Origin: Colwellia sp. TT2012
GTDB taxonomy: Bacteria; Pseudomonadota; Gammaproteobacteria; Enterobacterales; Alteromonadaceae
NCBI RefSeq assembly: GCF_001440345.1
Contig: NZ_LJYX01000017.1
Location: 558,001 to 622,000, forward strand
Direction: 5' to 3'
Length of the DNA: 64,000 nt
The notes beneath the pieces were generated by a model, which saw only the letters and a program-made list of their open reading frames with translations, was not told the DNA's origin and did no database searches. Shown here piece after piece: positions 11,179 through 28,388 of this stretch (positions are counted from its first letter, which is position 1; every line of letters begins with the position of its first letter). The position numbers and the translations under genes were made by a program.

Positions 11179-13965
11179 ATGATTAAATACTTCCCCTACC
11201 CGACAAGCTGTATCTGCCAATTTATATTGTTATTAAGCCTATCGGCCTGCCAGGATCACAAACCCAAAGAAGAGTTATTGAGCCCTGATGATATACCAGC
11301 TGTAACTGAAAGAGTATCGCCAATCTCTGACGATGTACCACCAATCTCTGACGATGTACCACCAATCTCTGACGATGTACCACCAATCTCTGACGATATA
11401 CCACCAATCTCTGACGATGTACCCCAAGTTATTTTAAACATTGCACCACTTGCCAGTGAGGTGACCATCATCACCCCAACTCAACCCAATAAAGACATAA
11501 CTGCCAGTTATACTTATTTTGATGAACATGATATTGAGGGCAGTAGTTTATATCGCTGGTTAATTGACGATATTGTTATTGCGGATTCATTTAGTTTTAC
11601 CCTACCAAGTGATAGCGAAGCTAAAAATTTAATTTTTTGTATTACACCTATAGCGGCTACAGGAGAAATAACCCAAGGATTAGAGGTCTGTGAAACACAG
11701 GTAATTACCGGGCAATACACAAAACCGACTATTGATGCCTTAGTACTGACTAGCTCCATAACAACGGGTATTGAGGTTTCGGCAACTTACCTGTTTGTAG
11801 ATGAAAACGAACGGCTTGAAGGTGATAGTGTTTTCAACTGGAAAATAAACGACAGTGATTACAGTGCACAAAAAATCATTACCTTCGGGGTAGAGCAGCA
11901 AGGCAGTTTCCTTATATTATGCTTAACCCCCATCGCAATCTCCGGTGAAAATGCTACGGGGGATACTATTTGTAGTGACCAAGTAATGATAGCGGCGAAA
12001 GCAGGCTCTGCGCCATCGGTAACTAACTTGCAATTAGCCAATTTTGCCAAAGCCACTAATAACATGTCGGTATCATATGACTATGTCGATAGTGATGGTG
12101 ATTTAGAATTTGATAGCACAACTGTTTGGTCTATTGATGGCGCACAAGTTAGTCAAATGCCCGATTATATACTGCCTTATGATAGCGCAGGCAAACTGTT
12201 ATCGGTATGTGTTACCCCTATTGCTATAACTGGCTCCCCCACAGAAGGAGCCACTAGCTGCGTAGCAGAATATATCGCGGATATTGTTATCACAGGTGAA
12301 TTAGAACTCTCTGACGATGTACCCCAAGTTATTTTAAACATTGCACCACTTGCCAGTGAGGTGACCATCATCCCCCCAACTCAACCCAATAAAGACATAA
12401 CTGCCAGTTATACTTATTTTGATGAACATGATATTGAGGGCAGTAGTTTATATCGCTGGTTAATTGACGATATTGTTATTGCGGATTCATTTGGTTTTAC
12501 CCTACCAAGTGATAGCGAAGCTAAAAATTTAATTTTTTGTATTACCCCTATAGCGGCTACAGGAGAAATAACCCAAGGATTAGAGGTCTGTGAAACACAG
12601 GTAATTACCGGGCAATACACAAAACCGACTATTGATGCCTTAGTACTGACTAGCTCCATAACAACGGGTATTGAGGTTTCGGCAACTTACCTGTTTGTAG
12701 ATGAAAACGAACGGCTTGAAGGTGATAGTGTTTTCAACTGGAAAATAAATGACAGTGATTACAGTGCACAAAAAATCATTACCTTCGGGGTAGAGCACCA
12801 AGGCAGTTTCCTTATATTATGCCTAACCCCCATCGCAATCTCAGGTGAAAATGCTACGGGTGATACTATTTGTAGCGACCAAGTAATGATAGCGGCGAAA
12901 GCAGGCTCTGCGCCATCGGTAACTAACTTACAATTAGCCAATTTTGCCAAAGCCACTAATAACATGTCGGTATCATATGACTATGTCGATAGTGATGGTG
13001 ATTTAGAATTTGATAGCACAACTGTTTGGTCTATTGATGGCGCAGAAGTTAGTCAAATGCCCGATTATATACTGCCTAATGATAGCGCAGGCAAACTGTT
13101 ATCGGTATGTGTTACCCCTATTGCTATAACTGGCTCCCCCGCAGAAGGAGCCACTAGCTGCGTAGCCGAATATATCGCGGATATTGTTATCACAGGTAAA
13201 TTAGAACTATACCAGACCATTAGCTTAGCAATTACCGGTTATAGTTTTAATAGCGTCACTTGGCGAATATTACACCCAAGCCATTCTCCCATAAGATCTA
13301 ACGATAGTAGCTCTTTCACCATAGCTAGCCCAACGGAAGAAGCTAATTGGTTAATAGGTCACGACCTTGAAGTTTGCATTGATACTATCGAATCGGGTGA
13401 GATATGTTTATTAGCCGCTGAGCAAGCAGTAACTGAGATTACTGGTGGTTTACCGACACAATTAGATACCGACAATAATATCAGCAAGCGCGTTATTGCG
13501 CCGGTAAGTTTTATTGATTTAACCATTTCAGGTACTAGTAAAAGATTACACAGGCCTCTCAATGTTACCGAATCAACACTCGCCAATATTAATAGTTCGG
13601 GTAGTGTGCCACTACATAACGATCAATACATAGATGGAAATACTGGCATTATTTGGGCCATTTATGATCAGCAAACTGCGCTCGATAGCTGTAGTAATCG
13701 CAGCATGATACTGCCGGTGCAAGGAGTTAGTGATACCTCAGATGATTTTGGTTTACAGCAGTTTTATAATCAGACGGCTATTGATTATGCACAGTTTTCA
13801 GACTCCTACATTGTCAGGGGTATGGGCTGGCCTGGGGTCTACTATCGTTCATCCTCTTTTCATTCAACAGGTAACCATTATGATTATTACTTACTTGGCG
13901 GCTTTGGCGATTATATCGATGATGATACTACCGAGGCTGCAGCTTGTTTAACAACGCTGCCTTAA
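11179..13965 (+). CDS. Repeat-containing lipoprotein, probable surface adhesin
   Basis: 928 residues. The N-terminus has a lipoprotein signal ending LLSLSAC (Cys about 25). Next comes a short linker of five tandem PPISDDV-type heptapeptides, encoded by 21-bp repeats. Then come six homologous beta-type domains of about 95 residues, each with an aromatic-rich SYxYxDxxxxEGxSxxxW core and a paired CxTPIAxxG / xxC ending. Domains 1-3 and 4-6 are a 300-residue tandem duplication. The C-terminal 150 residues (GIIWAIYDQQTALDSC, ILPVQG, WPGVYYRSSSFHSTGNHYDYYL, EAAACLT) resemble the C-type-lectin-like tips of intimin/invasin-type adhesins; this is inference. The architecture suggests a cell-surface stalk with a binding tip. 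It is monocistronic and flanked by terminators. Binding partner unknown. Confidence 0.75.
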   Translation: MIKYFPYPTSCICQFILLLSLSACQDHKPKEELLSPDDIPAVTERVSPISDDVPPISDDVPPISDDVPPISDDIPPISDDVPQVILNIAPLASEVTIITPTQPNKDITASYTYFDEHDIEGSSLYRWLIDDIVIADSFSFTLPSDSEAKNLIFCITPIAATGEITQGLEVCETQVITGQYTKPTIDALVLTSSITTGIEVSATYLFVDENERLEGDSVFNWKINDSDYSAQKIITFGVEQQGSFLILCLTPIAISGENATGDTICSDQVMIAAKAGSAPSVTNLQLANFAKATNNMSVSYDYVDSDGDLEFDSTTVWSIDGAQVSQMPDYILPYDSAGKLLSVCVTPIAITGSPTEGATSCVAEYIADIVITGELELSDDVPQVILNIAPLASEVTIIPPTQPNKDITASYTYFDEHDIEGSSLYRWLIDDIVIADSFGFTLPSDSEAKNLIFCITPIAATGEITQGLEVCETQVITGQYTKPTIDALVLTSSITTGIEVSATYLFVDENERLEGDSVFNWKINDSDYSAQKIITFGVEHQGSFLILCLTPIAISGENATGDTICSDQVMIAAKAGSAPSVTNLQLANFAKATNNMSVSYDYVDSDGDLEFDSTTVWSIDGAEVSQMPDYILPNDSAGKLLSVCVTPIAITGSPAEGATSCVAEYIADIVITGKLELYQTISLAITGYSFNSVTWRILHPSHSPIRSNDSSSFTIASPTEEANWLIGHDLEVCIDTIESGEICLLAAEQAVTEITGGLPTQLDTDNNISKRVIAPVSFIDLTISGTSKRLHRPLNVTESTLANINSSGSVPLHNDQYIDGNTGIIWAIYDQQTALDSCSNRSMILPVQGVSDTSDDFGLQQFYNQTAIDYAQFSDSYIVRGMGWPGVYYRSSSFHSTGNHYDYYLLGGFGDYIDDDTTEAAACLTTLP
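11320..11424 (+). repeat. Five tandem 21-bp repeats in coding sequence
   Basis: Units start at 11320, 11341, 11362, 11383 and 11404 and encode the heptad PISDDVP. They differ by only one or two bases. A partial related unit begins the second 900-bp copy at about 12309. Confidence 0.9.
11409..12308 (+). repeat. 900-bp tandem duplication, copy 1
   Basis: This segment is repeated at an exact 900-bp offset by 12309-13208. I count 15 single-base differences and no indels (about 98% identity). It encodes three beta-type domains of the lipoprotein. Confidence 0.95.
12309..13208 (+). repeat. 900-bp tandem duplication, copy 2
   Basis: Second copy of the block at 11409-12308. The join reads TTAGAACT followed by CTCTGACGATGTACC, placing the start of the unit at the last 21-bp repeat. 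The duplication keeps the frame. Confidence 0.95.
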
Positions 13966-14359: not shown

Positions 14360-14394
14360 CAAAAAGCCCCAACAAATTTATTGCTGGGGGCTTT
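14360..14394 (-). terminator. Terminator of the CobN-like gene
   Basis: An AAAAGCCCC...GGGGGCTTT hairpin with an imperfect inner stem around an ATTTA loop. On the minus strand it ends in a T-run. It lies about 65 nt after the stop of the CobN-like gene. Confidence 0.75.
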
Positions 14395-14456: not shown

Positions 14457-17400
14457 TTAGGCTGCTTTTTCTAACACTGGTTTTACAGCTTTAGCATTTG
14501 GGTTAAGCCATACCAACTTTTTAGTTGGTCGAACAAAATGACTAACGAGGCCAGCGAAGAATATAGCCAATAACCAATATAGCGTAGTGTGATCACTTTC
14601 AAGGGGCTCAGCTTTGCTCTGCTCTGCCAGCTTTTGTCCAGTAACGTGCTCAGTTTTTTTGGCTTGACTTGCTGACGCTGCTGGCACTTTCGGCTGTGCA
14701 TTAGCTTGTGCCAATACCTCTGCTAATGCCTTAGATAAGGGCATTAAACCAAAACCAACCGCGGCACTGTCCATATACTCATTGAATTTTACATTGTCAG
14801 TAACCACATCAAACTGCGTAGCGATTTCAGTATAGGTTGCTACCATTTTCTTGATAGTTGCTTCATCAGCTTGCCAGTAGCCTTTACGCACGGCTTCAAG
14901 CATACGCTCGATAATTTGCGCTAAGCTTTCCGCATTATGCTCCTCAAAAAACTCACGCATATCCATTTGGTATTTATCTTCAACATAGACTTCAAAGAAT
15001 TCTTGCCATTGATCATCACGTATCGCCTCAGGCGTCATCACTTCCCAACCCCACATGTTATTCATGCGGTCTAAAATGACCGTAGCGCCAGCATAACCAG
15101 AGTCTTGCATGGCTTTAATCCAACGTGGATGGAAATAGCGGCTACGCATTTCTTGATTAATAAATTCAGCCAGGGTTTGTACCTTTAACTGATCTTTTTT
15201 ACGCAAGTTGGAAACATACATTTCCGGAGTTTTACCATCTAGATAGCGTACTGCTAAACCGATACCACCAAAATACTGGAACGGATCATCATTGGTCATT
15301 AAGGCATAAAGGTTGGTTGAGCGTGAGAAAATAACGCCCTGAGTACCTGAAAGCACTTTGGCATATAAACCTTGCCCTGCCCCTAAAGCATTGGCAACAT
15401 TTTCGCTCCAACGTTTTTCATCAGCGCCATAAGCAAAGCCCATGCGGTCAAGATAAAGGTTCGCTAATTTATCATCGGTTTCCCACGTATCCGAGGCTAA
15501 TGAGCTACCCGCTAAACCAGTACCATAATTACCGGTTTCATTAGAGAAAATACGAATAGAAGATAAATACTCAGCATCTGCTACCGATTTACCTTTATCC
15601 AGTAATTCTGTCTTTAGGGCATTGCTATGACGATAAACAAAGTTATTGTCTTCTTTCATTTTTGCCACTTTATCAATGGCTTTTGCTAACCATAACATCA
15701 CATTAGGAAAGGCATCTCGATATAGACCTGTAGTTGAGATAACCACATCAATACGTGGACGTTTTAATTCGCTATAAGGAATAACCTCGGTACCGACCAC
15801 ATGCCCCTGGTGATTCCACTTAGGTTTTACACCTAGGGCATGGAGAATTTGCGCTTCTAAGGCCCCTTGATGACGCATGGTTTCTAATGACCACAAGGAG
15901 AAAGCTAACTTTTGTGGAAACTTACCATGCTTTTCAACATAAGCCGTTATGGTTTGGTTCATCAAGGTAACACCGGCATCATAGGCTTCTTTAGAAGGTA
16001 CTTTGGCTGGATTAAAGCCTATCAGGTTACGACCCGTTGGTACGGCTTCTGGGTTACGAATGGGATCACCGCCATAACTGGTTTTAATGTAGTTAGCGTC
16101 TAGGGCCAATAATAAGTTTTGTGTCTCTGCTATGGCTTGAAAGTTATGCCAATAGTTTTTGGCTATCGTTAAATCAGCAACTAATAACTCATCTAAATCC
16201 GTTAATAACTCTGGGTTAGCTTTATTTTTAGTTAAGTAAGCTTTTAGTAATTGAAAGCCTTCCAGTGCCGGTAGCTTTTTAACATTACGTTGATCAAACT
16301 GCTCTGCTTTGGCAATAGTCATGTTATGCGCTTGCTCATATTTTGCAGCACGCTTGGTGAAGTCATCACCTAACATTTGCAACATGGTGGTATATAAATG
16401 CGCCTCTTTTGGCAAAGCACCAAAAACATGCACACCTAAGGGGTGGCTCATTTGTGCCAAGGCATTTAAGTGATCTTGTAATTTAGCGATATAGTTATCA
16501 AAATCAGCTGCCATGGTCTCTGGCTCAATGGCTAAGTCTTTTAACATATTGAGCTTTTGTGCCATAACTATGATGCTGTCTTGAGTATTCGCCTTAGTTT
16601 TCCCTTCAGATAACATTAAGTAATTGTTGATTTTTTCATTTAATGTTGCCACTTCAGTATATAAACCTGCTTTGGCAAAACCTGGTGTTAGGTGGCTTAT
16701 CATAGTCGCTCGACCACGACGCTTAGCCTGCATGGCCTCACCAACATTATCGATAATATAGGGATAAAACACCGGTAAGTTACCTAAAGCTAAACTCGGT
16801 GCATCATAGACAGATAAACCACGTTCTTTACCGGTTAGCCATTCTTGACTGCCATGAGTCCCTAAGTGAATATAGGCATCAGCGCCAAAAATTTCTCGGG
16901 CAAATAAATAGCTGGCAAGATAACTGTGATTAATCGGTGTTTTAGTGCTGTGATATAAATTAGCATGCTCTTGGGCATCGTCACCACGCACACCTTGGGG
17001 TATCACTATCATATTGCCAAGGTTCATTCTTGGAATAACAAACGCAGGTACGGTGACACCGTTAAGTGTAGCTTGACGTAACATGCTGCTTTCTTCTGGC
17101 TTACCCCAACGGGCAATAATAGCTTCAGTAACCTCTGCTGGCAGGGCATTAAACCAATTAAGGTAAGTAGTTAACGGCATATATTCGGCCAAATCGAGGG
17201 CGATTAACTGCTCAGCATCTTCGCCGCGATAATAGGGGCGTAATAACTTACCCGCTGACTCAATGATTTCTTTATGGCCTTTAACATCAATGTTGTAGCC
17301 TTTGTCTTTCATCGCTTTAGCGATATTTTCAATGGAGGTTGGTACATCTAAAAAGGCAGCACCAATATTTTTTTCACCCGGTGGATAGTTCCAAATAAAA

Positions 17401-18599
17401 GTGGCTATTTTTTTATCACTGTTGTTGATGTGCGCAAGATTAGCGTGATTATAAGCACGTTCAACTAAGGCATTTAACTGATAATCAATAACAGTTTTAA
17501 CACCTTTATCATTTGCGGCAATAATAGTAGGGTCTGCGCTACCGGTATCTTCTGGCATCACCAAAAAAAATGGTGTTAATGATGGTGAAATACCGGCATG
17601 GTCTTGTTCAAAGCTTGCTTGATCGCCTTCGGTATAATTAAGGGCATGTAATACGGGCACACCCAGTTGTTCAAACTCAGTTCGACGCTTAGCAACAAAA
17701 TGTAATGAGCGATAGTTAATCAATAAATCAACACGGCTTTTAGTTTTGCTATGAGCTGCTCCCAGTTTACTTGCAACACTGTCAGAGCTTTCGACCATCA
17801 ATAAATCAGTGAATTTCGTTGCTTGATCTTCCCCTTCGAAGAAATAAGCTAAGGCTTTAGCGCCCTTTGCTTCAAGACCTTTAATCAAGGCATCGACGAT
17901 TTGTTGTTGTTCATAATCAATAACACTTCTATGGATACCAATGGCAATGACTACTTGGTTATCAGTAATATTTAAATACTCAAAAAAAGCATCGGCATCA
18001 CTCGTAACAAGACCGGGAAAATCATAATGATATAAACCAACACTTGGCACAATAATAGGCGCTTTGGCGGTCAGCGAAGATAGGTTAAGGAAATCATTGG
18101 CAAGGTAAAGCATCAAATTAGCATAATTTTCACGACCCGCATTATTGTAGTAACTGCCAATGTTTTTGGCTTGCGCACTAGATAGCCCTTGGTTCATGGT
18201 AGTGTTTGCTAAATCACCCATGGAGATAACCGGCACATTAGGCATTGTGATTAAGTGCTGCTGATATTTAGCAAACATGTATTTAGACAACGCAGGATTG
18301 ATACCATCAAGCATAATTAAGCTGGCTTTCGACCAAGCCGCTTTAATATCTTCTGCTGATTTGCCTTTGCTGGAAAAATTAACTAGCTCAAACGGTTGAT
18401 CTTTTGCTAATAATTGCAATAAGTCGCCCTTAGGTTTAGAGGCGTGGGAGGACATCATCAGTAGCACTTGCGGCTTAACTTGCACCTTATTTAACGGCTT
18501 ATCTAACGTGGTAGAGGGCTCTGCAACACTGACATTTACTAAGCACATTAGTGCTAAAGCCGGTAGTAAAGTAAGTTTATTTAAAATTTTTGTTATCAT
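14457..18599 (-). CDS. CobN-like chelatase, exported and membrane-anchored (HmuS-like)
   Basis: 1380 residues of the CobN / magnesium-chelatase H family. Unlike cytosolic cobaltochelatase CobN, it begins with a signal peptide (LTLLPALALMCLVNVSVAEP) and ends with a transmembrane helix near residues 1336-1356 (LYWLLAIFFAGLVSHFV) plus a basic tail, so the body should be periplasmic. Family motifs include HLGTHGSQEWLTGKERG near 575, DNVGEAMQAKRRGRA, IFSNETGNYGTGLAGS near 1020 and RMNNMWGWEV. It is the last gene after ExbB-like and DUF2149 genes, divergent from a TonB receptor. That set, with signal and anchor, is the arrangement of hmuS in Bacteroidota haem-uptake operons, where the CobN-like protein is implicated in removing metal from haem. 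Haem or another metallo-tetrapyrrole is therefore the inferred substrate; cobalamin remains an alternative. No CobS/CobT partners are nearby. Confidence 0.82.
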   Translation of the reverse strand: MITKILNKLTLLPALALMCLVNVSVAEPSTTLDKPLNKVQVKPQVLLMMSSHASKPKGDLLQLLAKDQPFELVNFSSKGKSAEDIKAAWSKASLIMLDGINPALSKYMFAKYQQHLITMPNVPVISMGDLANTTMNQGLSSAQAKNIGSYYNNAGRENYANLMLYLANDFLNLSSLTAKAPIIVPSVGLYHYDFPGLVTSDADAFFEYLNITDNQVVIAIGIHRSVIDYEQQQIVDALIKGLEAKGAKALAYFFEGEDQATKFTDLLMVESSDSVASKLGAAHSKTKSRVDLLINYRSLHFVAKRRTEFEQLGVPVLHALNYTEGDQASFEQDHAGISPSLTPFFLVMPEDTGSADPTIIAANDKGVKTVIDYQLNALVERAYNHANLAHINNSDKKIATFIWNYPPGEKNIGAAFLDVPTSIENIAKAMKDKGYNIDVKGHKEIIESAGKLLRPYYRGEDAEQLIALDLAEYMPLTTYLNWFNALPAEVTEAIIARWGKPEESSMLRQATLNGVTVPAFVIPRMNLGNMIVIPQGVRGDDAQEHANLYHSTKTPINHSYLASYLFAREIFGADAYIHLGTHGSQEWLTGKERGLSVYDAPSLALGNLPVFYPYIIDNVGEAMQAKRRGRATMISHLTPGFAKAGLYTEVATLNEKINNYLMLSEGKTKANTQDSIIVMAQKLNMLKDLAIEPETMAADFDNYIAKLQDHLNALAQMSHPLGVHVFGALPKEAHLYTTMLQMLGDDFTKRAAKYEQAHNMTIAKAEQFDQRNVKKLPALEGFQLLKAYLTKNKANPELLTDLDELLVADLTIAKNYWHNFQAIAETQNLLLALDANYIKTSYGGDPIRNPEAVPTGRNLIGFNPAKVPSKEAYDAGVTLMNQTITAYVEKHGKFPQKLAFSLWSLETMRHQGALEAQILHALGVKPKWNHQGHVVGTEVIPYSELKRPRIDVVISTTGLYRDAFPNVMLWLAKAIDKVAKMKEDNNFVYRHSNALKTELLDKGKSVADAEYLSSIRIFSNETGNYGTGLAGSSLASDTWETDDKLANLYLDRMGFAYGADEKRWSENVANALGAGQGLYAKVLSGTQGVIFSRSTNLYALMTNDDPFQYFGGIGLAVRYLDGKTPEMYVSNLRKKDQLKVQTLAEFINQEMRSRYFHPRWIKAMQDSGYAGATVILDRMNNMWGWEVMTPEAIRDDQWQEFFEVYVEDKYQMDMREFFEEHNAESLAQIIERMLEAVRKGYWQADEATIKKMVATYTEIATQFDVVTDNVKFNEYMDSAAVGFGLMPLSKALAEVLAQANAQPKVPAASASQAKKTEHVTGQKLAEQSKAEPLESDHTTLYWLLAIFFAGLVSHFVRPTKKLVWLNPNAKAVKPVLEKAA

Positions 18600-18667
18600 T
18601 ATATTTTTGAGAACCTTTTTAACCTCAGCTCGGGTTAATGGTTGTTAATTAGAGTAAATATATAGCC

Positions 18668-18712
18668 AAGCTAGGTAAAATTCCTTTTCAGGACGCCTGA
18701 GGAAAATAGCGA
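18668..18712 (-). other. Intercistronic hairpin between DUF2149 and CobN-like genes
   Basis: On the minus strand TTCCTCAGG, loop CGT, then CCTGAAAAGGAA form a 9-bp stem with a 2-nt bulge, followed by TTTTA. It sits in the 127-nt gap between the two genes and could partly terminate transcription or protect the upstream mRNA. Confidence 0.4.
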
Positions 18713-18726
18713 CTTAACTAACTCAA

Positions 18727-19086
18727 CTAATCCCTCGTTGGCTTAGTTGCTACTGACATGGCCTCAGTTTGTGCTTTAACACCTTCAGGTACATAAATAA
18801 AACTACCATCAGCCATTTTATAAGCAACACCGGCTCGCACACCTTCACCTGAGCCGACTTTTCCAGTAGATTTGTATTGTTTAATTTCTTTGCCTTTTTT
18901 AACAATCACTTCCATATTTGGCTTACCTGGATTTTTTATCACGGTAACATCATCACTGGAAAAGGTGCTCAAGGGATTTTGTGCTAACGCAATTAACAAG
19001 GCAGTAATGATGACCAAGAACACATCAATCAAGTTAACCGCGCTAAGAATGGGGTTTAGCTCTTCATCTTCATCAAGAAAGCGCAT
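18727..19086 (-). CDS. DUF2149 family protein (ExbD/HmuV-like)
   Basis: A 119-residue small inner-membrane protein. A short cytoplasmic head is followed by one transmembrane helix at about residues 14-40 (SAVNLIDVFLVIITALLIALAQ), then a periplasmic tail with GKVGSGEGVRAGVAYKMADGSFIYVPEG. The conserved Asp near the start of the helix mirrors the proton-path Asp of ExbD, so it probably forms the energy-transducing partner of the ExbB-like subunit. Its start overlaps the stop of the ExbB-like gene (TAATG), indicating coupled translation. DUF2149 genes commonly sit beside CobN-like and TonB receptor genes, as here. The exact role is inferred. Confidence 0.82.
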   Translation of the reverse strand: MRFLDEDEELNPILSAVNLIDVFLVIITALLIALAQNPLSTFSSDDVTVIKNPGKPNMEVIVKKGKEIKQYKSTGKVGSGEGVRAGVAYKMADGSFIYVPEGVKAQTEAMSVATKPTRD

Positions 19087-19625
19087 TATGCCTGACCTTT
19101 AATTTTTCTAATGTTAATTAATTCAACCGCACACCAGCGTTTTTTCACCGAGGCCGGCCAAAACGTTAACGATGAAATCACCATGCCCCAAATAACGGCG
19201 GCAAAAGCAATGATCAAATTTTCACTAATGCCTTGGATATTGCCATCAGCCAATGCTTGTAGTGCTGGCCCCATGGGAATCATGGTGGCAATCAAGCCTA
19301 ACATTGGCGCAATTCGAGTCACTATACGCAGGTTTTCTAATTGCTTTAGCGCCACCACTTCCAATTCATCTTCACTGGCTTGAGGGTTATTAATAAAATA
19401 GTTATGGATGGGATAACCATTATGTGTGGTCACCTTCGGTAGGGCTGCTTGGGAAATCTGGCGTACATAAGCCAGTTTGTTTTGTTTTCTCACTAAGTAC
19501 TGTGAGAAAAATCGTCCTAATGCGTATATGGCGTAAACGACTAAAGAACAGATTAAAATAATAACAGGCGTCATCAATAGTTCTGATGTTTGTGCCATGG
19601 TTATTTCTAAAGAATGAATATTCAC
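19086..19625 (-). CDS. MotA/TolQ/ExbB proton-channel family protein (HmuU-like)
   Basis: 180 residues with three hydrophobic helices: one near the N-terminus (LMTPVIILICSLVVYAIYALG), one at VTRIAPMLGLIATMIPMGPAL and one at LIIAFAAVIWGMVISSLTFWP. The last two carry the TolQ/ExbB channel pattern. The frame is open to 19745, but GTG at 19625 has a GAGG ribosome site 11 nt upstream (19637-19640) and gives a normal N-terminus. ATG 19598 is another option. The longer start would place the Fur-like site inside the gene. With the DUF2149 protein it should form a proton-driven motor serving the adjacent TonB receptor or the periplasmic chelatase. Confidence 0.85.
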   Translation of the reverse strand: MNIHSLEITMAQTSELLMTPVIILICSLVVYAIYALGRFFSQYLVRKQNKLAYVRQISQAALPKVTTHNGYPIHNYFINNPQASEDELEVVALKQLENLRIVTRIAPMLGLIATMIPMGPALQALADGNIQGISENLIIAFAAVIWGMVISSLTFWPASVKKRWCAVELINIRKIKGQA

Positions 19626-19687
19626 TGTGCTAATTACCTCGTAAAAATTAAGCCCAACGATTGTACAACTCCCCGAATGACTTATCA

Positions 19688-19706
19688 AATAGTAATTATT
19701 ATCATT
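19688..19706. promoter_or_regulatory. Putative Fur box in the divergent promoter region
   Basis: AATAGTAATTATTATCATT matches 12 of 19 bases of the classical Fur consensus. It lies in the 258-bp gap between the ExbB-like gene and the TonB receptor, so both could be iron-repressed. AT-rich DNA makes chance matches fairly common. Confidence 0.5.
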
Positions 19707-19883
19707 TAGGTTTACATTTGCATTTGTGCTCTGTATGGTACTCACAAAATTAATAAGCAGCGTCTATTTATTGCACAAAGTCACAATGGACACTTGCTGA
19801 AGTATTGCTTTTCCTGAAGCAAATTATTTACTAGATACCCCTACTTGATATCTAGGTATATCTCTTTCTAATAGGAATAAAAA

Positions 19884-22067
19884 ATGTTTATGCCCAAGCG
19901 CGCCCTCCTCGCCACTGCGATTTCCACAGCCCTTTTTGTTGCACCGTCAAGTTATGCTGAAGACAATGTCCATGCCACTGTTCATAGTGCCTTAGAAAGA
20001 ATTGTTATTAGTGGTACTAAAACAGAAAAGCCGCTAAAAGATGTTGCTGGTAGTATCTCGGTCATCACAGAGCAAGACATTGAAAGACAGCTAGTTACCG
20101 ATATGAGCCAGTTATTTAAATATGATCCCAGTGTACAAGTGACCGGCAGTATCGGCGGCGCACAAAATATTATCGTGCGTGGCATGGGTGGCGATCGTGT
20201 TTTAATGATCAAAGACGGTATGCGTATGAACGAAGGTTATGGCGCCAATGGCTTAAATGATATTGTTGGTCGTGGCTTTATTGACACCGATACTCTAAAA
20301 CAAGTGGAAGTGGCTAAAGGCGCGTATTCTTCACTTTATGGCTCAGATGCATTAGGCGGTATTATCGTCTTTACCACCAAAGATGCTGCAGATTATTTAA
20401 CGGATGGTGAAAAATTTGCCGGTACGGTTAAAGTTGGCTACACCGATGATGGTAAGCAAGGCAATTTAGGTACTACCCTAGCTTTAGCGACAGGTGACTT
20501 TGAGCAGGTACTAAACCTAACTTACCGCGACGGTGAAGAGTCACAAAACTATGCGGGTACAAGACCTTCATTAGCTATTGAATCAAGCAGTATTTTCTAT
20601 AAAGCAAAATACCATTTCAATGAAAATAGCTACCTTAGCTTTACTGCTGACATCTGGCAGCAAGAGGTTACGGGGAACGTTGCTTACGGCTTATTAGGTT
20701 ATTTTAGAGATCTTGAAGGTTATAGCATTATTGATGAAAATAGCCAAAGTCAAAAAGATAACCAATCCTTGCAATTACGCTTTCATAGTGAGACTAAAAC
20801 AGCCGTTTATGATCTGCTCAATGTCTCGCTTTATAGCAATAATACTGAACAAGAAGATGTTGAATATGGTCAGTTAGACATAAACGCTAATTATGGTTAT
20901 CCGCTGATTGAAATTCGCGATATGTACAAAACAGCGCTTTATAAACAAGAGACCCTAGGTTTTTTATCTAACGCCAGCCTAGCCCTAAATGACACTCACA
21001 CTATTGGTTATGGTTTAGATATTGAACAATCGACTTCTAGCCGTACCGAAGTGAAACTGTACTCAGTCGAAGGTACACCAAAAAAGGGTTACCCACAAGA
21101 AACAGATAAATTCCCAGAGACTGATGTTTTTCGCGCTGGTTTCTTTATAAATGACGAAATTTCGTTGTTAGATGGCAAGCTTTTATTCACCCCTGGTGCC
21201 CGTTTTGATACTTACCAAATGGATGCTAATGGCGTGCTAAAAGAAGACGGAATGCCCTACGCAGATTTTGATGAAAACCATGTTTCATTAAGCATTGGCG
21301 GCTTGTATAAATTTACCAATACCATTGCTGGCTTTGCCCAATATGGACAAGGTTTTAAAGTACCGGCTTATGATTTAGCCTACATTGAGCATGATAATTC
21401 AATGTACGGGTATAAGATTGTCCCTAGTAATGATTTAGCACCCGAAGAAAGTGATAATTTTGAAATGGGTCTACGTGGCCATACTGGCAATTTTTTATTT
21501 TCAACCGCTATATATTACAGTACGTTTGATAATTTCTTAGCAACAGAGGTTATTGGCCATGAAACTATTACCGACCCATACACAGGTCAAGATATGCGGG
21601 TAGCAATCCATCAATATCAAAATATTGACTCAGTGACGCTTAAAGGTATTGAAGCAGCGGTTCGTTATCATATCAATGATAGTTTTTCTGTCTTTGCCAA
21701 TGCCGCCTATCAAGACGGTAAAGATGATGAAAGTGGTGACTACCTAACCAGTATTTCTCCACTTTCAGGCATCACTGGTGTTAGTTATGAAGTAGATGAT
21801 TTATCTGCTGAGTTAATTGTTAACTGGGCTGACCGCATGGAAAAAGTGAATGTAGGCCATACTGAAGTTGCCGGTTATGGCACGGTTGACTTCTTAACTA
21901 GCTATCAAGTTACTGATGAATTAAGAGTCAACCTAGCGATAACCAATATCACTGACAAAGAGTATGTTAAATACTTAAATGGCGCTGGCCATAAAGATAC
22001 TGCGACTTTATCAGAGGTTACTGAAGCTGGACGTAGCTTCTCCGCATCAATGCGTTATGATTTCTAG
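19884..22067 (+). CDS. TonB-dependent receptor, probable haem/metallo-tetrapyrrole type (HmuR-like)
   Basis: 727 residues: signal peptide (cleavage near SSYAEDN, residue 25), TonB-box-like RIVISGT near 39, plug domain to about 165 (VRGMGGDRVLMIKDGMRMNEG, YGSDALGGIIVFTTK) and a 22-strand-type barrel ending in RSFSASMRYDF. The fold resembles haem/haemoglobin receptors. The usual FRAP and NPNL haem-receptor boxes are replaced by GFKVPAYDLAYIEHDNS and SNDLAPEESDNFEMG. AGGA 7 nt before ATG 19884 is the ribosome site. It is divergent from the ExbB-like/DUF2149/CobN-like operon with a Fur-like box in between, so it is most likely the outer-membrane entry point for the tetrapyrrole that operon processes. 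Ligand is inferred from context. Confidence 0.85.
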   Translation: MFMPKRALLATAISTALFVAPSSYAEDNVHATVHSALERIVISGTKTEKPLKDVAGSISVITEQDIERQLVTDMSQLFKYDPSVQVTGSIGGAQNIIVRGMGGDRVLMIKDGMRMNEGYGANGLNDIVGRGFIDTDTLKQVEVAKGAYSSLYGSDALGGIIVFTTKDAADYLTDGEKFAGTVKVGYTDDGKQGNLGTTLALATGDFEQVLNLTYRDGEESQNYAGTRPSLAIESSSIFYKAKYHFNENSYLSFTADIWQQEVTGNVAYGLLGYFRDLEGYSIIDENSQSQKDNQSLQLRFHSETKTAVYDLLNVSLYSNNTEQEDVEYGQLDINANYGYPLIEIRDMYKTALYKQETLGFLSNASLALNDTHTIGYGLDIEQSTSSRTEVKLYSVEGTPKKGYPQETDKFPETDVFRAGFFINDEISLLDGKLLFTPGARFDTYQMDANGVLKEDGMPYADFDENHVSLSIGGLYKFTNTIAGFAQYGQGFKVPAYDLAYIEHDNSMYGYKIVPSNDLAPEESDNFEMGLRGHTGNFLFSTAIYYSTFDNFLATEVIGHETITDPYTGQDMRVAIHQYQNIDSVTLKGIEAAVRYHINDSFSVFANAAYQDGKDDESGDYLTSISPLSGITGVSYEVDDLSAELIVNWADRMEKVNVGHTEVAGYGTVDFLTSYQVTDELRVNLAITNITDKEYVKYLNGAGHKDTATLSEVTEAGRSFSASMRYDF

Positions 22068-23352: not shown

Positions 23353-23602
23353 CTACACTGCAAAAGGATATTTAATCGCGTCGTGACACTCATAGCCTGC
23401 TACTTTAAAATCATCCATAGTTACCCAAGTTTCAATGTCTTCTAGTGACTTTATCTCAGGGTTTATAATAAGTTTTGGCAACGCCATCGGCTGACGTTTA
23501 AGCTGTACATCTTTCATTAAAGATAACTGGTCTTCATAAATATGAGCATTAACGACCTTCTTCAATTAATCAGTAGTACCACGGTCTGATTTAGTCAATG
23601 CT
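23353..23602 (-). pseudogene. thyA fragment 1 (C-terminus joined to an internal piece)
   Basis: Codons 3-70 of the open frame 23353-23565 match the last 68 residues of the intact ThyA (28389-29240) with about 7 differences. Upstream, from about 23552 to 23602, the DNA instead resembles thyA DNA near 28853-28900, so about 260 bp of the gene is missing between them. The join falls where both sides encode a K-[IV]-V-N type word (HKIVNA and KKIVDN), suggesting deletion at microhomology. The fragment lacks the active-site Cys and cannot be functional. Confidence 0.85.
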
Positions 23603-23919
23603 CACTATTGAAAAATAACAGTATATGACCAAGTTATTTACTGCCTATTTACGAATTTATTTAAAGCTGTTTGGTAGCAAAATAATTTTCTACTAAGGTA
23701 CAACCAAGGGAAGGCATCGTCCACCGCTGAAAGATTATGGATAGATAAGGTTTACCCTTTTATTATTCACATAACTTTCACGAAGCTGTTACTTTTTGTT
23801 ACTTTTATTACACTTCATGATCATTGAAATTGCATACAATATAAAGTATATATATAGTGCGAACATTAAACGTTAATACGACCTAAAATAAATATAATAA
23901 ATACTTCTAAGGAAGAACA
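23603..23919. other. Intergenic leader of the second TonB receptor
   Basis: No gene is seen. The right part carries a good sigma-70 promoter and an AAGGAAG ribosome site. AT content is very high from 23750 on. Confidence 0.55.
23831..23859 (+). promoter_or_regulatory. Putative sigma-70 promoter of the second TonB receptor
   Basis: TTGCAT (23831-23836), a 17-nt spacer and TATAGT (23854-23859) fit the consensus and lie about 60 nt before the start codon. Confidence 0.5.
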
Positions 23920-26631
23920 ATGAGTATAACTAGAACATTTAAGCTATCGGCAATCTCTGCGGCGATGCTATCTATAGCATCAAGCATTGCCACGCCCGTT
24001 TTTGCGGCTGAAGAAGAAGAAATTGAGAAAATTATGGTTACAGGTTCACGTATAGCACGTGCTGAAATTACTTCAAGCTCACCTATTACCATAGTAACTA
24101 AAGCACAATTAACTAAGTTAGGCATTACTGACGTAAGTTCTGCCTTACGCCGTTTACCTGCTATTACTGGTAACAGTACTAATAATCAAAGTAGTTCTGG
24201 TGCTAGCAGCATTCAAACGGCAACACTGCGTGGTATTGAAGCAACCAATACTTTAGTTTTACTGAATGGCCGACGTTTGGTGGGCTCAAATGCAGATGGT
24301 CTAGTGGATCTTTCCTCAATCCCTTTTGAAGCTATTTCACAAATTGAAGTATTAAAAGATGGTGCTTCCGCTATTTATGGCTCTGATGCCATTGCCGGTG
24401 TTATTAACATTATTACTCGTAGCAACTACGAAGGTTTTGAAGTTAACGCGACTTATGGAGAATCTTCAGAAGGTGATGCACAAGAGCGAAAAGTCGGTTT
24501 TGTTATGGGTTTAAGCGCGGATAAAGGTAGCATAATGATCGCGGCTTCTAGCAGCAACAATGCAGGCTGGGAAGAAAAAGACCGCTACATGACCCAAGAT
24601 GCTAACCAGGAGTATTTAGGTGGCACTAACTCTAGGTCAGGCTATGCGCCTAATGCTAGGCTTTCTGGTTTCGGTTTAGGTGATGGAAATTGGACTGTTT
24701 TAGATGCCAACAATCCAAGTGTAGCGGTTCCATTTGATTATGATACCATGGGTTATAATTATCGCGATGCTCAATCAGGTGCCAATGATAATAAAACCAC
24801 CAGTGTTTTTGTAAGTGCTGATTACGAGTTAAGTGACGATGTATTATTCTATACAGAACTATCTTTCCATAATGGTTTTGTTCAAGGAAACCAAGCGCCG
24901 CCAGCAGTTAGTACAAGCTGGTATGGTGATAGCATTGACACCCCTAATGCATTTAAACGTTACCCAGACGGAGACGGTAATAACTTTGGTGTAGGTCCTA
25001 ACCAAAAATATAACCCGTTTGGTGCTGCTGGTAATGTCGATCGCCGTTTTAGTGAATATGGCTCTCGTATCTACAAAACAGATAACACCATTCAACGTTA
25101 TACCCTTGGTTTACAGGGTACTGTTTTTGAAGAGTTTGATTGGGAACTAAGTTTTTCAAGTCAATCTGCTGAGTTAATTACTCGAGGCGGTGCTCAACCA
25201 TCAATTAATCAAATTGAGCGGGCTTTGTCTGATGAATGTGAAACAGCGGCAGATCCTACTTGTGTAGCCTTAAATGTATTTGGCCCTGAAGGCTCTATTA
25301 CGCCTAAAATGTTAGACTTCATTAATACTACGGCTCCTGTAGTGACTAATAAAAATGATTTAATGTTTATGCAAGCACATATTTCTGGCCCTGTGATGTC
25401 ACTGCCATCGGGTGATTTGATGTTCTCAACAGGTGTTGAATATCGCGAAGATCAATTATCTTTGGAAGTAGATCAGGCACAACGTACGGCAACATTTGAC
25501 GTATCTTGGGGTGGTTCAAGTACGCCAGTAATTTCTCCAGTGCGTGAAATTACTGAAGTTTATTTAGAGCTAGCAATTCCTGTACTTGATAATTTAGACG
25601 TTGAACTTGCAGTTCGTTACAGTGACTATAGTGATATTAACGAAAGTACCACTAATCCTAAGTTTGGTATCAGCTACAGACCACTTGATATGTTAAAACT
25701 ACGTGCAAGTTACAGCACAGGTTTCCGTGCACCAACAATGGCACAAATGTATCAAGGCAGAACATCAAGTATTAATACTAATATTTATGATCCTTGTAAT
25801 CCAAATAATGAGGCTAACTTTAGCTCAACAAATTCTGATTGTGTTGCTCTTGGCTTAGATCCAGCGTTGAGTAAAAACACACTATTAAGTAACGATATTA
25901 TTGGTGGTGGTAATCCAGATTTAAAACCTGAAGAAGCTGAAAACGTGACTTTAGGTTTGGTTGTAGAGCCAATGGATAACTTATCATTTACCCTTGATTA
26001 TTTTTCTATTGAGCAAACTGATGTAGTATTTGGTAGCTCTCGTTATGTAATTGATCAAAACTTAATAGGTAACCCAACTTATTCAGGTGATGTACTTCGT
26101 ACCAATAATGGTACTGGCTATATTCAAACGGTATTCTCACCACAAAATAATATTGCAGCTCGTAACATTGCTGGTTTTGATTTTAATGTTAATTACATGT
26201 TAGAAACTGAGTTTGGTGAATGGCGCATAAACTTTGATACCACAATGATGAGTAAGTTTGAAGTTCAAGATACTAGTGCTTCAGACTTTAGAGACATTGT
26301 TGGTACTTACGATTCAGCCTTCGGCAGCCTACCAGAATATAAAGCCAATTTACAAATTGATTGGTCAATGGGTAATTACCGCGCAACATGGGATGCTAAC
26401 TACAATTCTGAAATTGAAGCGTCTGAAGATGATGTAATGTCAGCAACAGTATTCCATAACATGCAAGTAGGTTACTTTATAGAAGGTATTGGTACCGATG
26501 TACATCTTGGTATTCAAAATATCTTTGATAAAGAGCCACCATTCTTAATGGCTAATGGTACCGCTACTGATGATAATCTTTACTCATTCCGTGGTAGATT
26601 CCTTTACATGGGTGTGAAAAAAGAGTTTTAA
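23920..26631 (+). CDS. TonB-dependent receptor, large peptide/carbohydrate-type
   Basis: 903 residues: signal peptide ending PVFAAEEE (about residue 30), TonB-box-like KIMVTGSRI, a plug with TLRGIEATNTLVLLNGRRLVGS and LKDGASAIYGSDAIAGVINIITR, and a long barrel ending GRFLYMGVKKEF. NPDLKPEEAENVTLG and YSTGFRAPTMAQMYQGRTS are typical of the large receptors expanded in Alteromonadales and Xanthomonas for nutrients other than siderophores. Two short Cys pairs in extracellular loops (DECETAADPTC, DPCNPNN...SDC) are likely disulfides. AAGGAAG precedes ATG 23920. It is followed by an exported cyclophilin and a decayed S9 peptidase, so an imported peptide ligand is plausible. No Fur box is evident. 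Confidence 0.88.
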   Translation: MSITRTFKLSAISAAMLSIASSIATPVFAAEEEEIEKIMVTGSRIARAEITSSSPITIVTKAQLTKLGITDVSSALRRLPAITGNSTNNQSSSGASSIQTATLRGIEATNTLVLLNGRRLVGSNADGLVDLSSIPFEAISQIEVLKDGASAIYGSDAIAGVINIITRSNYEGFEVNATYGESSEGDAQERKVGFVMGLSADKGSIMIAASSSNNAGWEEKDRYMTQDANQEYLGGTNSRSGYAPNARLSGFGLGDGNWTVLDANNPSVAVPFDYDTMGYNYRDAQSGANDNKTTSVFVSADYELSDDVLFYTELSFHNGFVQGNQAPPAVSTSWYGDSIDTPNAFKRYPDGDGNNFGVGPNQKYNPFGAAGNVDRRFSEYGSRIYKTDNTIQRYTLGLQGTVFEEFDWELSFSSQSAELITRGGAQPSINQIERALSDECETAADPTCVALNVFGPEGSITPKMLDFINTTAPVVTNKNDLMFMQAHISGPVMSLPSGDLMFSTGVEYREDQLSLEVDQAQRTATFDVSWGGSSTPVISPVREITEVYLELAIPVLDNLDVELAVRYSDYSDINESTTNPKFGISYRPLDMLKLRASYSTGFRAPTMAQMYQGRTSSINTNIYDPCNPNNEANFSSTNSDCVALGLDPALSKNTLLSNDIIGGGNPDLKPEEAENVTLGLVVEPMDNLSFTLDYFSIEQTDVVFGSSRYVIDQNLIGNPTYSGDVLRTNNGTGYIQTVFSPQNNIAARNIAGFDFNVNYMLETEFGEWRINFDTTMMSKFEVQDTSASDFRDIVGTYDSAFGSLPEYKANLQIDWSMGNYRATWDANYNSEIEASEDDVMSATVFHNMQVGYFIEGIGTDVHLGIQNIFDKEPPFLMANGTATDDNLYSFRGRFLYMGVKKEF

Positions 26632-26686
26632 TGATATAGGGTCTTCATAGAGACCCTTAGAGTTAATAAAATTAACAATTTTTAGC

Positions 26687-26716
26687 AAAGCCACACTTTT
26701 TATCCAGTGTGGCTTT
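26687..26716 (+). terminator. Terminator after the second TonB receptor
   Basis: AAAGCCACACT (26687-26697) pairs perfectly with 26706-26716 and is followed by TTTT. The cyclophilin gene starts 25 nt later, so read-through is possible. Confidence 0.82.
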
Positions 26717-26741
26717 TTTATGTTCATTAAATTAGGAATAA

Positions 26742-27620
26742 ATGATGGTGATTAAATTAAACAAGCTGATAATATTATTACTGTGCCTCTGTTTTTCAGT
26801 TAATGCAGCAGAGGTAAATAAATCACTTTATCGTACACCAAATACCGACAATCTATTATACCTAGAGCTAAATACTGGCTTGATTATTATAGAATTAAAT
26901 CCACTTTTTGCACCAAAACATGTCGCACAAATAAAAAAACTTGTTCGCGCTAATTTTTATCATGGTTTAAGTTTTTATCGCGTAATAGATGGTTTTGTTG
27001 CACAAGCAGGCACAAGTATTGATGAAGATGATGGTAGCGAAAACTTTAAAATAAGTGATAAATCTCTACAATTAAAGCTAGAGCCATGGTTGAGCAGTAT
27101 TGGCAATAAAACATTCACCTTGGTGCAATCTCCCGATTTATTTGCCTCTCAAACGGGGTTTATCGAAGGTTTTGGAGCCGCTCAAAGTAGTGGCAGTTTA
27201 CAAACTTGGTTAACCCACTGTCCAGGTGTTGTCGGCATGTCACGTAACAAAGAGCCCAATACAGCAACAACAGATTTTTACATTGTCATCGGCCAAGCAC
27301 CCAGATATTTAGATAGGATAACGACTATCTTTGGACGAGTGATATTGGGAATGGATATAGTACAAAAAATTAATCGTGGCGATAAAAACAATAATGGTGT
27401 CTTTGATTATGCTAACAATGCCACTGTAATTAAAAGCATGGTTATAGCAAGTGACTTACCAATAAACAAACAATATAGGGTTTTGATAGAGCGTACGGAC
27501 ACCGTTGCTTTTAAAAAAAAGTTACATACCAGGTTAGTACGGCCTGATAATTTTTTCTATAGAAAGCCTCCACAGGTACTTGATGTTTGCCAAGTTCCCA
27601 TCATGACCATACTACTTTAA
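26742..27620 (+). CDS. Exported cyclophilin-type peptidyl-prolyl isomerase
   Basis: 292 residues with a signal peptide (KLIILLLCLCFSVNAAE). The cyclophilin domain is read as LNTGLIIIELNPLFAPKHVAQIKKL, then FYHGLSFYRVIDGFVAQAG with the catalytic-loop F-x-R-V-I-x-G-F, then FYIVIGQAPRYLDRITTIFGRVILGMDIVQKI. It is longer than small cyclophilins, with an insertion carrying LQTWLTHCPGVVGMSRNKEP and a C-terminal extension of about 60 residues. It should catalyse proline isomerisation in the periplasm. AGGA lies before ATG 26742; the second ATG is equally possible. Its place directly after a large TonB receptor suggests handling of proline-containing imported peptides; inferred only. Confidence 0.85.
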   Translation: MMVIKLNKLIILLLCLCFSVNAAEVNKSLYRTPNTDNLLYLELNTGLIIIELNPLFAPKHVAQIKKLVRANFYHGLSFYRVIDGFVAQAGTSIDEDDGSENFKISDKSLQLKLEPWLSSIGNKTFTLVQSPDLFASQTGFIEGFGAAQSSGSLQTWLTHCPGVVGMSRNKEPNTATTDFYIVIGQAPRYLDRITTIFGRVILGMDIVQKINRGDKNNNGVFDYANNATVIKSMVIASDLPINKQYRVLIERTDTVAFKKKLHTRLVRPDNFFYRKPPQVLDVCQVPIMTILL

Positions 27621-27621
27621 A

Positions 27622-27754
27622 CGATAATATCTACTTTTTTACCGGTAATGTTCGCCATTAGCGCTACAGGGGTATCACACGAAACCGGTTAGCTGCAATA
27701 TACCGCCAAATAAAAAGAATTTATGAATATACATGCAAGGTCTTAAACACCCTA
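27622..27754 (-). pseudogene. thyA fragment 2 (internal piece)
   Basis: This DNA aligns with the part of intact thyA at about 28599-28782 in the same orientation. Shared words are TTTTTTACCGGT, GCCATTA, ATCACACGAA and ATGCAAGGTCTTAAACA (ATACAAGGTCTTAAACA in thyA), with an internal gap of about 40 nt. It is frameshifted and begins directly after the cyclophilin stop codon. It represents thyA sequence missing from fragment 1, on the other side of the TonB receptor/cyclophilin pair. Confidence 0.7.
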
Positions 27755-27835
27755 TTTAGATCGAGCCATGTTAACCGGTGAATATTTTTATTCGAATGCT
27801 AATGACAGTAGAAAAGCAGATTTAAGTTAACTAAA

Positions 27836-28181
27836 CGATCACTTGGTGGTGCTAGCCGCCCTTTTAGCATTATTAATATTCTTAAAGATGACAAAGTGCA
27901 TATATTGATCTTAGACACCTCAACGTGTGAGTACCCAACAGCATATAAATTAAATGTATTTTCTGGGAAACGTAAAAAAAACAACTCGAAGTCCTGTTTA
28001 TATTGGCGATAATTCGGGAAACATACGTCTTGCTACTGGCCTGACGAAGGATGGTATAGAGGGCGTTCGTTATAAAAGAAAAGAAGGCTATGGCTTGGCC
28101 AAGTTTGAAAACAGAGTGAAGCCCTATAAAAAGATAGAACAGTTTTCAGATCAACATTTTGGCAATTCTGGCACAAAATAG
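27836..28181 (+). pseudogene. Decayed S9 (prolyl oligopeptidase) family peptidase fragment
   Basis: Frame 1 gives SLGGASRPFSIINILKDDK...YKLNVFSGKRKK until a stop near 28010. A second frame from 27954 gives TRSPVYIGDNSGNIRLATGLTKDGIEGVRY and ends at TAG 28179-28181. Joined near 27975 (A-run), they match the propeller part of exported S9-family peptidases common in this order (PFSIINILKDD, KLNxxTGKRK, DxxGNIRxATG). The catalytic domain is absent. This is recognition from motif memory, not a search. Confidence 0.5.
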
Positions 28182-28296
28182 TCGCGGCTAGACAGTTTAC
28201 TAGCAGTTCTTAACCTGCGGCTAGTAAAAAAATTCTTTTGTAGTTATTTCGAGTATTATTTTATTTCGGCTTGCGCTTATTTGACTAGGCTGAAAA

Positions 28297-28326
28297 AAAA
28301 GGCCAGCTGTTATCAGCTGGCCTTTT
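28297..28326 (-). terminator. Terminator of the thyA operon
   Basis: A 13-bp perfect stem (AAAAGGCCAGCTG and complement) with a 4-nt loop TTAT; a T-run follows on the minus strand. Confidence 0.92.
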
Positions 28327-28388
28327 CCGCTTTGCTTTATCTATTCAGTTAGGTCTTGAGTAGCGGCTAACAGCTTATCGCTTAAACA

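Follow-up and report, generated by a model that had tools for sequence, protein, structure and literature searches.

How does a chelatase that acts outside the cytoplasm, away from ATP, obtain the energy to move a metal, and which metal does it move? Both questions are raised by a four-gene locus in a 64,000-nucleotide stretch of the genome of the gammaproteobacterium Colwellia sp. TT2012 (contig NZ_LJYX01000017.1, positions 558,001 to 622,000; this whole stretch is hereafter called the window). Here, a gene for a TonB-dependent receptor diverges from three genes encoding an ExbB/TolQ-like protein, a DUF2149 protein and a CobN-like chelatase (Table 1). This arrangement, first described in a prediction made from the DNA letters alone (the original prediction), is borne out by coordinates, strands and Pfam matches, and the CobN-like gene is the sole PF02514 match in the 4.42-Mb genome. 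The reading that we prefer, and that we hold to be evenly poised between right and wrong, is that the locus is an iron-linked cassette scavenging metal from an imported tetrapyrrole, in which the ExbB-DUF2149 pair would be the proton-driven motor of the exported CobN-like chelatase.

Under this reading, the receptor would be powered by an ordinary TonB-ExbB-ExbD set encoded elsewhere and would import a ligand into the periplasm, for which haem, or an iron porphyrin resembling it, is the likeliest candidate. The CobN-like protein, once exported and fixed to the inner membrane through its C-terminal helix, would bind this ligand and presumably take the metal out rather than insert it. The ExbB-like and DUF2149 proteins would together form a proton-driven inner-membrane motor acting on the chelatase, and would play outside the cytoplasm the part that falls to the ATP-driven AAA+ subunits (CobS-CobT, ChlI-ChlD) in the case of cytosolic class I chelatases. 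We read the pair as a stand-in motor because cytosolic class I chelatases need AAA+ ATPases, because no match to CobT was found in the genome, and because there is no ATP in the periplasm; class I chelatases are described as ATP-driven, although the reason for this energy need is not settled (PMC7689651). Those parts of the scheme that can be read from the sequence itself are the four genes and their conserved linkage, the signal-like start and predicted C-terminal anchor of the chelatase, its membership of an exported clade, the acid in the DUF2149 helix, the recurring Fur-like site and the lack of a CobT match.

The exported chelatase and its putative motor

The CobN-like protein begins with a signal-like stretch, MITKILNKLTLLPALALMCLVNVSVAEP, and ends with a hydrophobic one, LYWLLAIFFAGLVSHFV, followed by RPTKK; these termini, read directly, agree with the signal peptide and C-terminal membrane anchor first proposed for it. 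The protein was placed in a tree of 107 members of the CobN superfamily (FastTree, with ultrafast bootstrap values, UFBoot, on 60 tips), from which duplicate short loci (L001, L041-L061, L082-L090 and L122-L136), fragments below 1000 amino acids and L160-L171 were left out; L083 was placed by BLAST rather than in the tree, and the small extra CobN fragments of genomes G191, G193 and G295 are unplaced. It falls within an exported CobN-like clade that holds 78 of the 107 tips, HmuS included, with a FastTree support of 0.846 and a UFBoot value of only 70 (60 tips). It lies outside the cytosolic CobN clade (UFBoot 100) and apart from the BchH-type proteins; clustering with cytosolic CobN, which had been set beforehand as the outcome that would tell against the original prediction, was not seen. 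At least four groups can be told apart within the exported clade, namely a gammaproteobacterial branch of long proteins (1436-1571 amino acids, 14 tips), the HmuS proteins of Bacteroidota, a Trichlorobacter/Runella group and the window's own branch, with Azospirillum and Diaphorobacter standing further out; the order in which these groups branch has little support (UFBoot 49-70). A C-terminal hydrophobic segment (17-residue mean of at least 1.3) is present in 76 of the 78 exported tips versus 0 of the 29 others, and N-terminal hydropathy is no discriminator (75/78 versus 17/29).

Membership of this clade goes with the putative motor genes. Of the 78 exported tips, 76 have matches to both ExbB and DUF2149 no more than 4 kb from cobN; L108, one of the remaining two, does match DUF2149 of Pfam (genome G140). 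Neither was found with any of the 29 tips outside the clade in the DNA examined. As many tips had been picked through DUF2149 or through similarity to the window, the fairer test is a sample of 369 genomes drawn evenly from the class. In this sample, DUF2149 was found over the cut-off in 20 genomes and CobN in 41, and all 20 DUF2149 genomes also had CobN (Fisher, 5e-22); in the 21 genomes that have CobN but no DUF2149, the main CobN proteins fall outside the exported clade, and the sole sub-cut-off DUF2149 match, in G294, is an ExbD gene. A sample of the phylum had DUF2149 in 17 of 398 genomes; three overlap the earlier set, and the remaining 14 gave 15 loci, each with CobN and ExbB nearby. 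CobN is also within 4 kb in 10 of 11 plasmid records with DUF2149.

The wider locus is conserved as well, beyond what chance would give. One scan of a genome collection returned 39 related loci, the closest being that of Colwellia marinimaniae (91% identity). The same divergent four-gene layout is present in 33, including L021 and L036, in which the receptor is only 31% identical; two (Nitrosomonas) have a distantly related, co-directional receptor, and four are cut by contig ends or truncated. No further conserved gene was found around the four, and a candidate extra neighbour was rejected, since the recurrent families are mostly antisense frames or the local synteny of close relatives. Parashewanella hymeniacidonis (L040:4317-4946) retains only the C-terminal part of a CobN-like gene, preceded by other frames, and the locus is apparently broken or rearranged.

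The pair could instead serve the receptor. The role in uptake and metal removal would then be the same, but ExbB-DUF2149 would energise the TonB receptor and the chelatase would work unaided, as is drawn for HmuU and HmuV of the Bacteroidota, where the published Hmu model has HmuV-HmuU powering HmuR (PMC12583661); a 2026 paper describes HmuV as without homology to any known family (PMC13227078). We consider this unlikely, because several comparative observations argue for the chelatase as the partner. The window genome encodes a TonB-ExbB-ExbD set elsewhere, together with a set that we take to be TolQRA-like. Moreover, TonB-ExbB-ExbD genes lie directly beside ExbB-DUF2149-CobN in L093 (4119-11125) and in L114 (5562-12140; Trichlorobacter), and these two loci appear to encode two proton motors side by side. 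Pairwise distances over 66 loci gave partial correlations of 0.47 for ExbB-CobN versus -0.14 for ExbB-receptor, and of 0.66 for DUF2149-CobN versus -0.36 for DUF2149-receptor, so that the pair follows CobN; with CobN taken into account, it does not follow the receptor. In addition, the genome of Methanosarcina acetivorans has genome-level matches to the CobN, DUF2149 and MotA/ExbB families and none to ExbD or TonB_C. A published table places DUF2149 among methanogens (count column 41), linked to TolQ (PMC9425974), and the CobN of a Geobacter lovleyi plasmid is likewise described as lacking CobS and CobT partners (PMC3403914). Taken together, these data suggest that the ExbB-DUF2149 pair tracks the chelatase, not the receptor. 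The original prediction spoke of an ExbB/DUF2149 motor of the chelatase's own; the pair is present, and pairing it with the chelatase is what the comparative data favour.

DUF2149 itself is predicted to consist of one transmembrane helix with a conserved Asp21 and a short further part. Asp21 is invariant in 30 of 30 orthologues, and the position is acidic in 25 of 25 members of a wider set (24 Asp, 1 Glu) and Asp in 9 of 9 of another, these sets overlapping in part. An acid is thereby retained at the place in the helix where ExbD and TolR carry one, which we count as a further pointer to a motor for the chelatase. An AlphaFold model has a helix at residues 12-36 with a predicted local distance difference test score (pLDDT) of 54, too poor for a fold search. 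The GLxxT motif of the ExbB-like protein is common to the ExbB and TolQ of the same genome.

A number of findings weigh against our reading of the pair as a chelatase motor. In 68 of the 78 exported tips a receptor gene is found no further than 4 kb from cobN, as expected also if the pair drives the receptor, and CobN itself tracks the receptor (partial correlation 0.72; 66 loci); all of these distance correlations come from non-independent data and carry no p-value. Cupriavidus L118_1 belongs to the exported clade, yet ExbB and DUF2149 are not nearby. On a plasmid of Paracoccus alcaliphilus (L157:3611-4732), the sole plasmid exception, DUF2149 stands beside a 200-residue piece of a receptor, and the 13.5 kb read contains no CobN; this locus is likely a remnant. 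Methanosarcina barkeri is said to have two BtuS proteins without the entire operon seen elsewhere (PMC10846266). Heterologously expressed HmuS is reported to convert haem to protoporphyrin with NADH, and to do so in the absence of its partner proteins (PMC12583661), so that a motor may not be strictly needed, and a btuS1 btuS2 double mutant of Bacteroides fragilis still released protoporphyrin from haem while growing poorly on haem iron (PMC6460266). Finally, an ExbD profile gave 0 matches among 34 DUF2149 proteins at E values up to 10 (the filters drop most above 0.1). A profile-profile comparison brought the DUF2149 and ExbD helices into register at the Asp with a probability of only 6% (p 0.006, with 1 of 20 shuffles higher), and a divergent set gave 2.4%. 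Sequence methods thus give no established homology of DUF2149 to ExbD/TolR.

Promoter control, ligand and metal

Promoters were scored with words that we assume to be the Fur and Zur consensus. In the window alone, the Fur-like site of the shared promoter region, noted in the original prediction, is weak: it scores 13/19, a value reached by a third of 60 shuffles, and the 64-kb window holds 61 sites of 13 or more. What gives the site weight is only its conservation across orthologous promoters. Among 34 of these, 15 score at least 14/19, 12 score 13 and 7 score 11-12; the expected number at 14 or above in 200 resampled sets was 0.92 on average and 4 at most, although the 34 promoters are related and therefore not independent. 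Zur-type matches in the same promoters were no better than in shuffles, the best in the window (8/14) being reached by all shuffles, and Zur control in the window's clade was accordingly rejected; a Zur-like match at L150 is explained by chance (1 in 174 regions scanned, background 0.3%). The 64-kb window contains no cobalamin riboswitch. On this evidence, the locus looks iron-linked.

The receptor was first described as lacking the usual haem boxes, whose names we take to be FRAP and NPNL. The boxes are indeed degenerate, reading FKVP...H503...SNDL, but degenerate versions are present, and the protein passes two curated haem-receptor models (TIGR01786, 386.7 bits, cut-off 323.75; TIGR01785, 358.2 bits, cut-off 316.85). 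His503, between the degenerate boxes, is kept in 20 of 22 receptors. The plug domain carries a methionine cluster, of which M101, M113 and M115 are present in 20 of 22 clade receptors and M108 in 19 of 22, and which, M101 excepted, is mostly not found elsewhere; methionines 101, 108, 113 and 115 are possible metal or haem ligands.

A haem-like ligand is favoured by the sister lineage of the window's branch (UFBoot 100), in which a gene for HmuY lies between receptor and exbB in L091, L092 and L146 (PF14064 over the cut-off) and also in L097, but not in L093. L146 belongs to genome G717, which is of the same genus as the window and has two systems: L146, with HmuY, receptor, ExbB, DUF2149 and CobN, and L147, which belongs to the long, mostly B12-linked branch. 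In the window, neither HmuY nor HmuT adjoins the four genes, so the six-gene hmu operon is incomplete there, as had been said of HmuY; a search of the whole window genome for HmuY gave 0 matches, although the positive controls likewise gave none.

That the cassette might handle a metal other than iron, whether zinc as in Pseudomonas, nickel or cobalt, in another chelate, with the Fur-like sites incidental or a matter of cross-regulation, we regard as rather improbable. It has precedents elsewhere. PA1922-PA1925 of Pseudomonas aeruginosa are strongly induced by zinc starvation and their promoter is bound by Zur (PMC4542158, PMC8531726). In the long gammaproteobacterial branch, a cobalamin riboswitch adjoins the receptor or cobN gene in seven of eight loci scanned (L099, L101, L102, L104, L107, L108 and L154; none in L105), the one by cobN in L154 being marginal (33.5 versus 31.5 bits), and from these riboswitches we take this to be a B12-controlled branch of the same chelatase-motor system. 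Cobalamin riboswitches also occur in L114 and L142, the latter with CbiZ, and in Azospirillum a riboswitch directly follows the ExbB-DUF2149-CobN trio. On a Runella slithyformis plasmid (L115:1-12812), the trio and a receptor lie inside a hydrogenase maturation cluster (hypF, hypC, hypD, hypE), accompanied by a membrane gene whose NicO match falls short of the cut-off (21.7 versus 27.7 bits), a hint of a nickel-linked version. Given Zur control in Pseudomonas and B12 riboswitches in other branches, the substrate is not to be read from the cassette alone. For the window's clade, however, the chance-level Zur-type matches, the recurring Fur-like sites, the haem-type receptor and the HmuY of the sister lineage all speak for iron.

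A further reading is that the chelatase is simply HmuS, a Bacteroidota-kind haem de-chelatase acquired by gammaproteobacteria. The gene set is that of hmu minus HmuY and HmuT, the protein is predicted to be exported and anchored, and its best PDB sequence match is HmuS 9d26 (1.3e-122), followed by CobN 7c6o. However, its subclade is separate from Bacteroidota HmuS, and the HmuS-specific positions, taken from PMC12583661, are not kept. Where HmuS has the motif LSLDHxxEFMGG, the window protein has LMTNDDPFQYFGG, with Asp for H1209 and Gln for E1212; in place of the haem site formed by Met79-Gly80 and His254-Gly-Arg it has INP and NYRSLHF, in a low-identity alignment. The Aureibacter hmu control also lacks Met79 (R instead). 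The methionine content of the protein is at most 8.7% per 80-residue stretch (HmuS domain IV has a Met-rich insertion), a coarse measure that two of three hmu-operon controls equally failed. With H1209, E1212, M79 and HGR-254 not kept, the published scheme of haem ligation by HmuS cannot simply be transferred. The HFG(T/A)HG motif is present as HLGTHG with His538 kept, but this is a superfamily-wide feature (L149 is poorly aligned there). Nor does the fold decide: an AlphaFold model of residues 41-1240 has a pLDDT of 63 and a predicted template modelling score of 0.46, and in Foldseek this low-confidence model matches HmuS 9d26 (2.5e-38) and CobN 7c6o (1.9e-37) equally well, at a root-mean-square deviation near 26 Å. 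A true HmuS orthologue is accordingly very unlikely. The initial proposal of an HmuS-like protein stripping metal from haem or another tetrapyrrole holds as regards the exported clade, the iron-linked locus and the sister-lineage HmuY, but not at the level of HmuS residues.

A cobalt-inserting CobN of corrinoid synthesis or salvage, suggested by the best NCBIfam model (the CobN equivalog, other models being far lower) and by the related B12-controlled branches, one with CbiZ, is extremely improbable, since the score of 1235.3 bits is below the cut-off of 1248, the protein is predicted to be exported, CobT is unmatched and the window has a Fur-like site and no B12 riboswitch; a role in B12 synthesis is rejected by the clade as well. 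CobT (PF06213) gave 0 matches in the window genome, in a search that matched the Caulobacter control and did not cover CobS.

With regard to the metal, too, some observations count against our iron-linked reading. Seven of the 34 promoters reach only 11-12 of 19 for Fur. The HmuS-specific haem ligands are absent from the window protein, as would also suit another metal. PF02421 has 11 matches in the window genome, the best (58 bits) in a 515-residue frame, and none is of the length that we presume to mark FeoB.

Gene layout and the rest of the window

Table 1. Features of the locus, in window coordinates
Feature	Position	Strand	Description
CobN-like gene	14457..18599	-	1380 aa; predicted exported, inner-membrane-anchored class I (de)chelatase, BtuS/HmuS-type, not HmuS proper; PF02514 1009.8 bits
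DUF2149 gene	18727..19086	-	119 aa; PF09919 104 bits; ExbD-like in gene position
ExbB/TolQ-like gene	19086..19598	-	170 aa; PF01618 28.7 bits (cut-off 22.9); start ATG 19598
TonB-dependent receptor	19884..22067	+	Pfam Plug and barrel; haem/haemoglobin-receptor type
Fur-like site CTAAATGATAATAATTACT in shared promoter region	19691..19709	-	13/19, not significant alone
Promoter-like site for exbB-duf2149-cobN	19660..19688	-	TTGATA-17-TACAAT, 10/12; consensus match only
Terminator-like hairpin 3' of CobN-like gene	14367..14389	-	Consensus scan only

The ATG at 19598, which gives the MAQTSELLM of the orthologues, is a likelier start for exbB than the GTG at 19745. With this start, the Fur-like site lies upstream of the gene and adjoins the promoter-like sequence. 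Promoter-like sites are rarer in the region than by chance (13 found versus 24.4 in shuffles), and terminator-like hairpins are at about chance level (8 versus 7.3).

Elsewhere in the window (23356-29243, - strand), thyA is intact at 28392-29243; its last 68 codons recur at 23356-23559, and a 29-residue piece is present at 27681-27767. Between them lie a second TonB receptor (23920-26631) and a 292-residue gene (26742-27620), an arrangement that would fit the insertion of a segment next to thyA in which the thyA end was duplicated. A lipoprotein-like gene of 928 residues (11179-13965, + strand) contains an internal 900-bp tandem duplication, about 98% identical (11429-12285 versus +900).

Comparison with known systems

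Neither the components of the cassette nor the way they are combined is new, both being on record for P. aeruginosa and for Bacteroidota. The original prediction drew its comparison only with the hmu genes of Bacteroidota and missed the published set PA1922-PA1925 (TonB receptor, CobN-like protein, "ExbD" and DUF2149), which has the same four components in one locus of a gammaproteobacterium and whose role is described, in the extracts available, as undetermined or speculative (PMC4542158, PMC8531726, PMC9431628, PMC11761036). PA1922-PA1925 are Zur-regulated and zinc-responsive, whereas the window cassette has a recurring Fur-like site and Zur-type matches at chance. HmuYRSTUV of Bacteroides thetaiotaomicron and Porphyromonas gingivalis shares the receptor, the exported CobN-like protein and its clade, the ExbB-like and DUF2149 proteins and the link to iron; it differs in that the window has no adjoining HmuY or HmuT, does not keep the HmuS residues H1209, M79 and H254-G-R, and has another gene order with a divergent receptor.

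The window protein also fits the description of BtuS, an exported, anchored CobN-like family proposed for metalloporphyrin salvage, named by Rodionov in 2003 according to PMC6460266 and represented in Bacteroides fragilis by BtuS1 and BtuS2. The extracts of the two BtuS papers (PMC6460266, PMC10846266) contain neither an ExbB-DUF2149 motor nor an iron-linked gammaproteobacterial member. With CobN-CobS-CobT and ChlH-ChlD-ChlI, the protein shares a homologous catalytic subunit and the conserved His of the THG/KHG motif; those enzymes are ATP-driven and insert metal (PMC7689651), whereas the window protein is predicted to be exported, lacks a CobT match and comes with a proton-channel-like pair. 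ExbB-ExbD and TolQ-TolR likewise set an ExbB-like channel protein beside a single-helix protein with a conserved helix acid, but DUF2149 is short, gave no match to the ExbD model and goes with CobN instead of TonB.

From its predicted proteins and promoters, we therefore class the cassette among the exported CobN-like (BtuS/HmuS) systems, as a Fur-type member that is distinct from HmuS; marine gammaproteobacteria would thus have an iron-linked version of these systems. A broader proposal, on which we lean slightly to the side of doubt, is that all exported CobN-like proteins, HmuS included, are class I chelatases driven by the proton motive force, in which ExbB-DUF2149 replaces AAA+ subunits so that metal can be pulled or inserted outside the cytoplasm; its branches would be under Fur, Zur (Pseudomonas) or B12 and would serve several metals, in bacteria as well as in archaea that have no outer membrane. 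In the open-licence PMC literature, as far as its extracts extend, we did not find ExbB-DUF2149 proposed as a chelatase motor. This engine is what would be new, if true, and it would directly answer how an exported chelatase is driven without ATP. HmuU and HmuV would then be re-assigned, also in bacteria of the gut and mouth that depend on haem, and the same idea would help to explain the Zur-regulated PA1922-PA1925 locus of P. aeruginosa.

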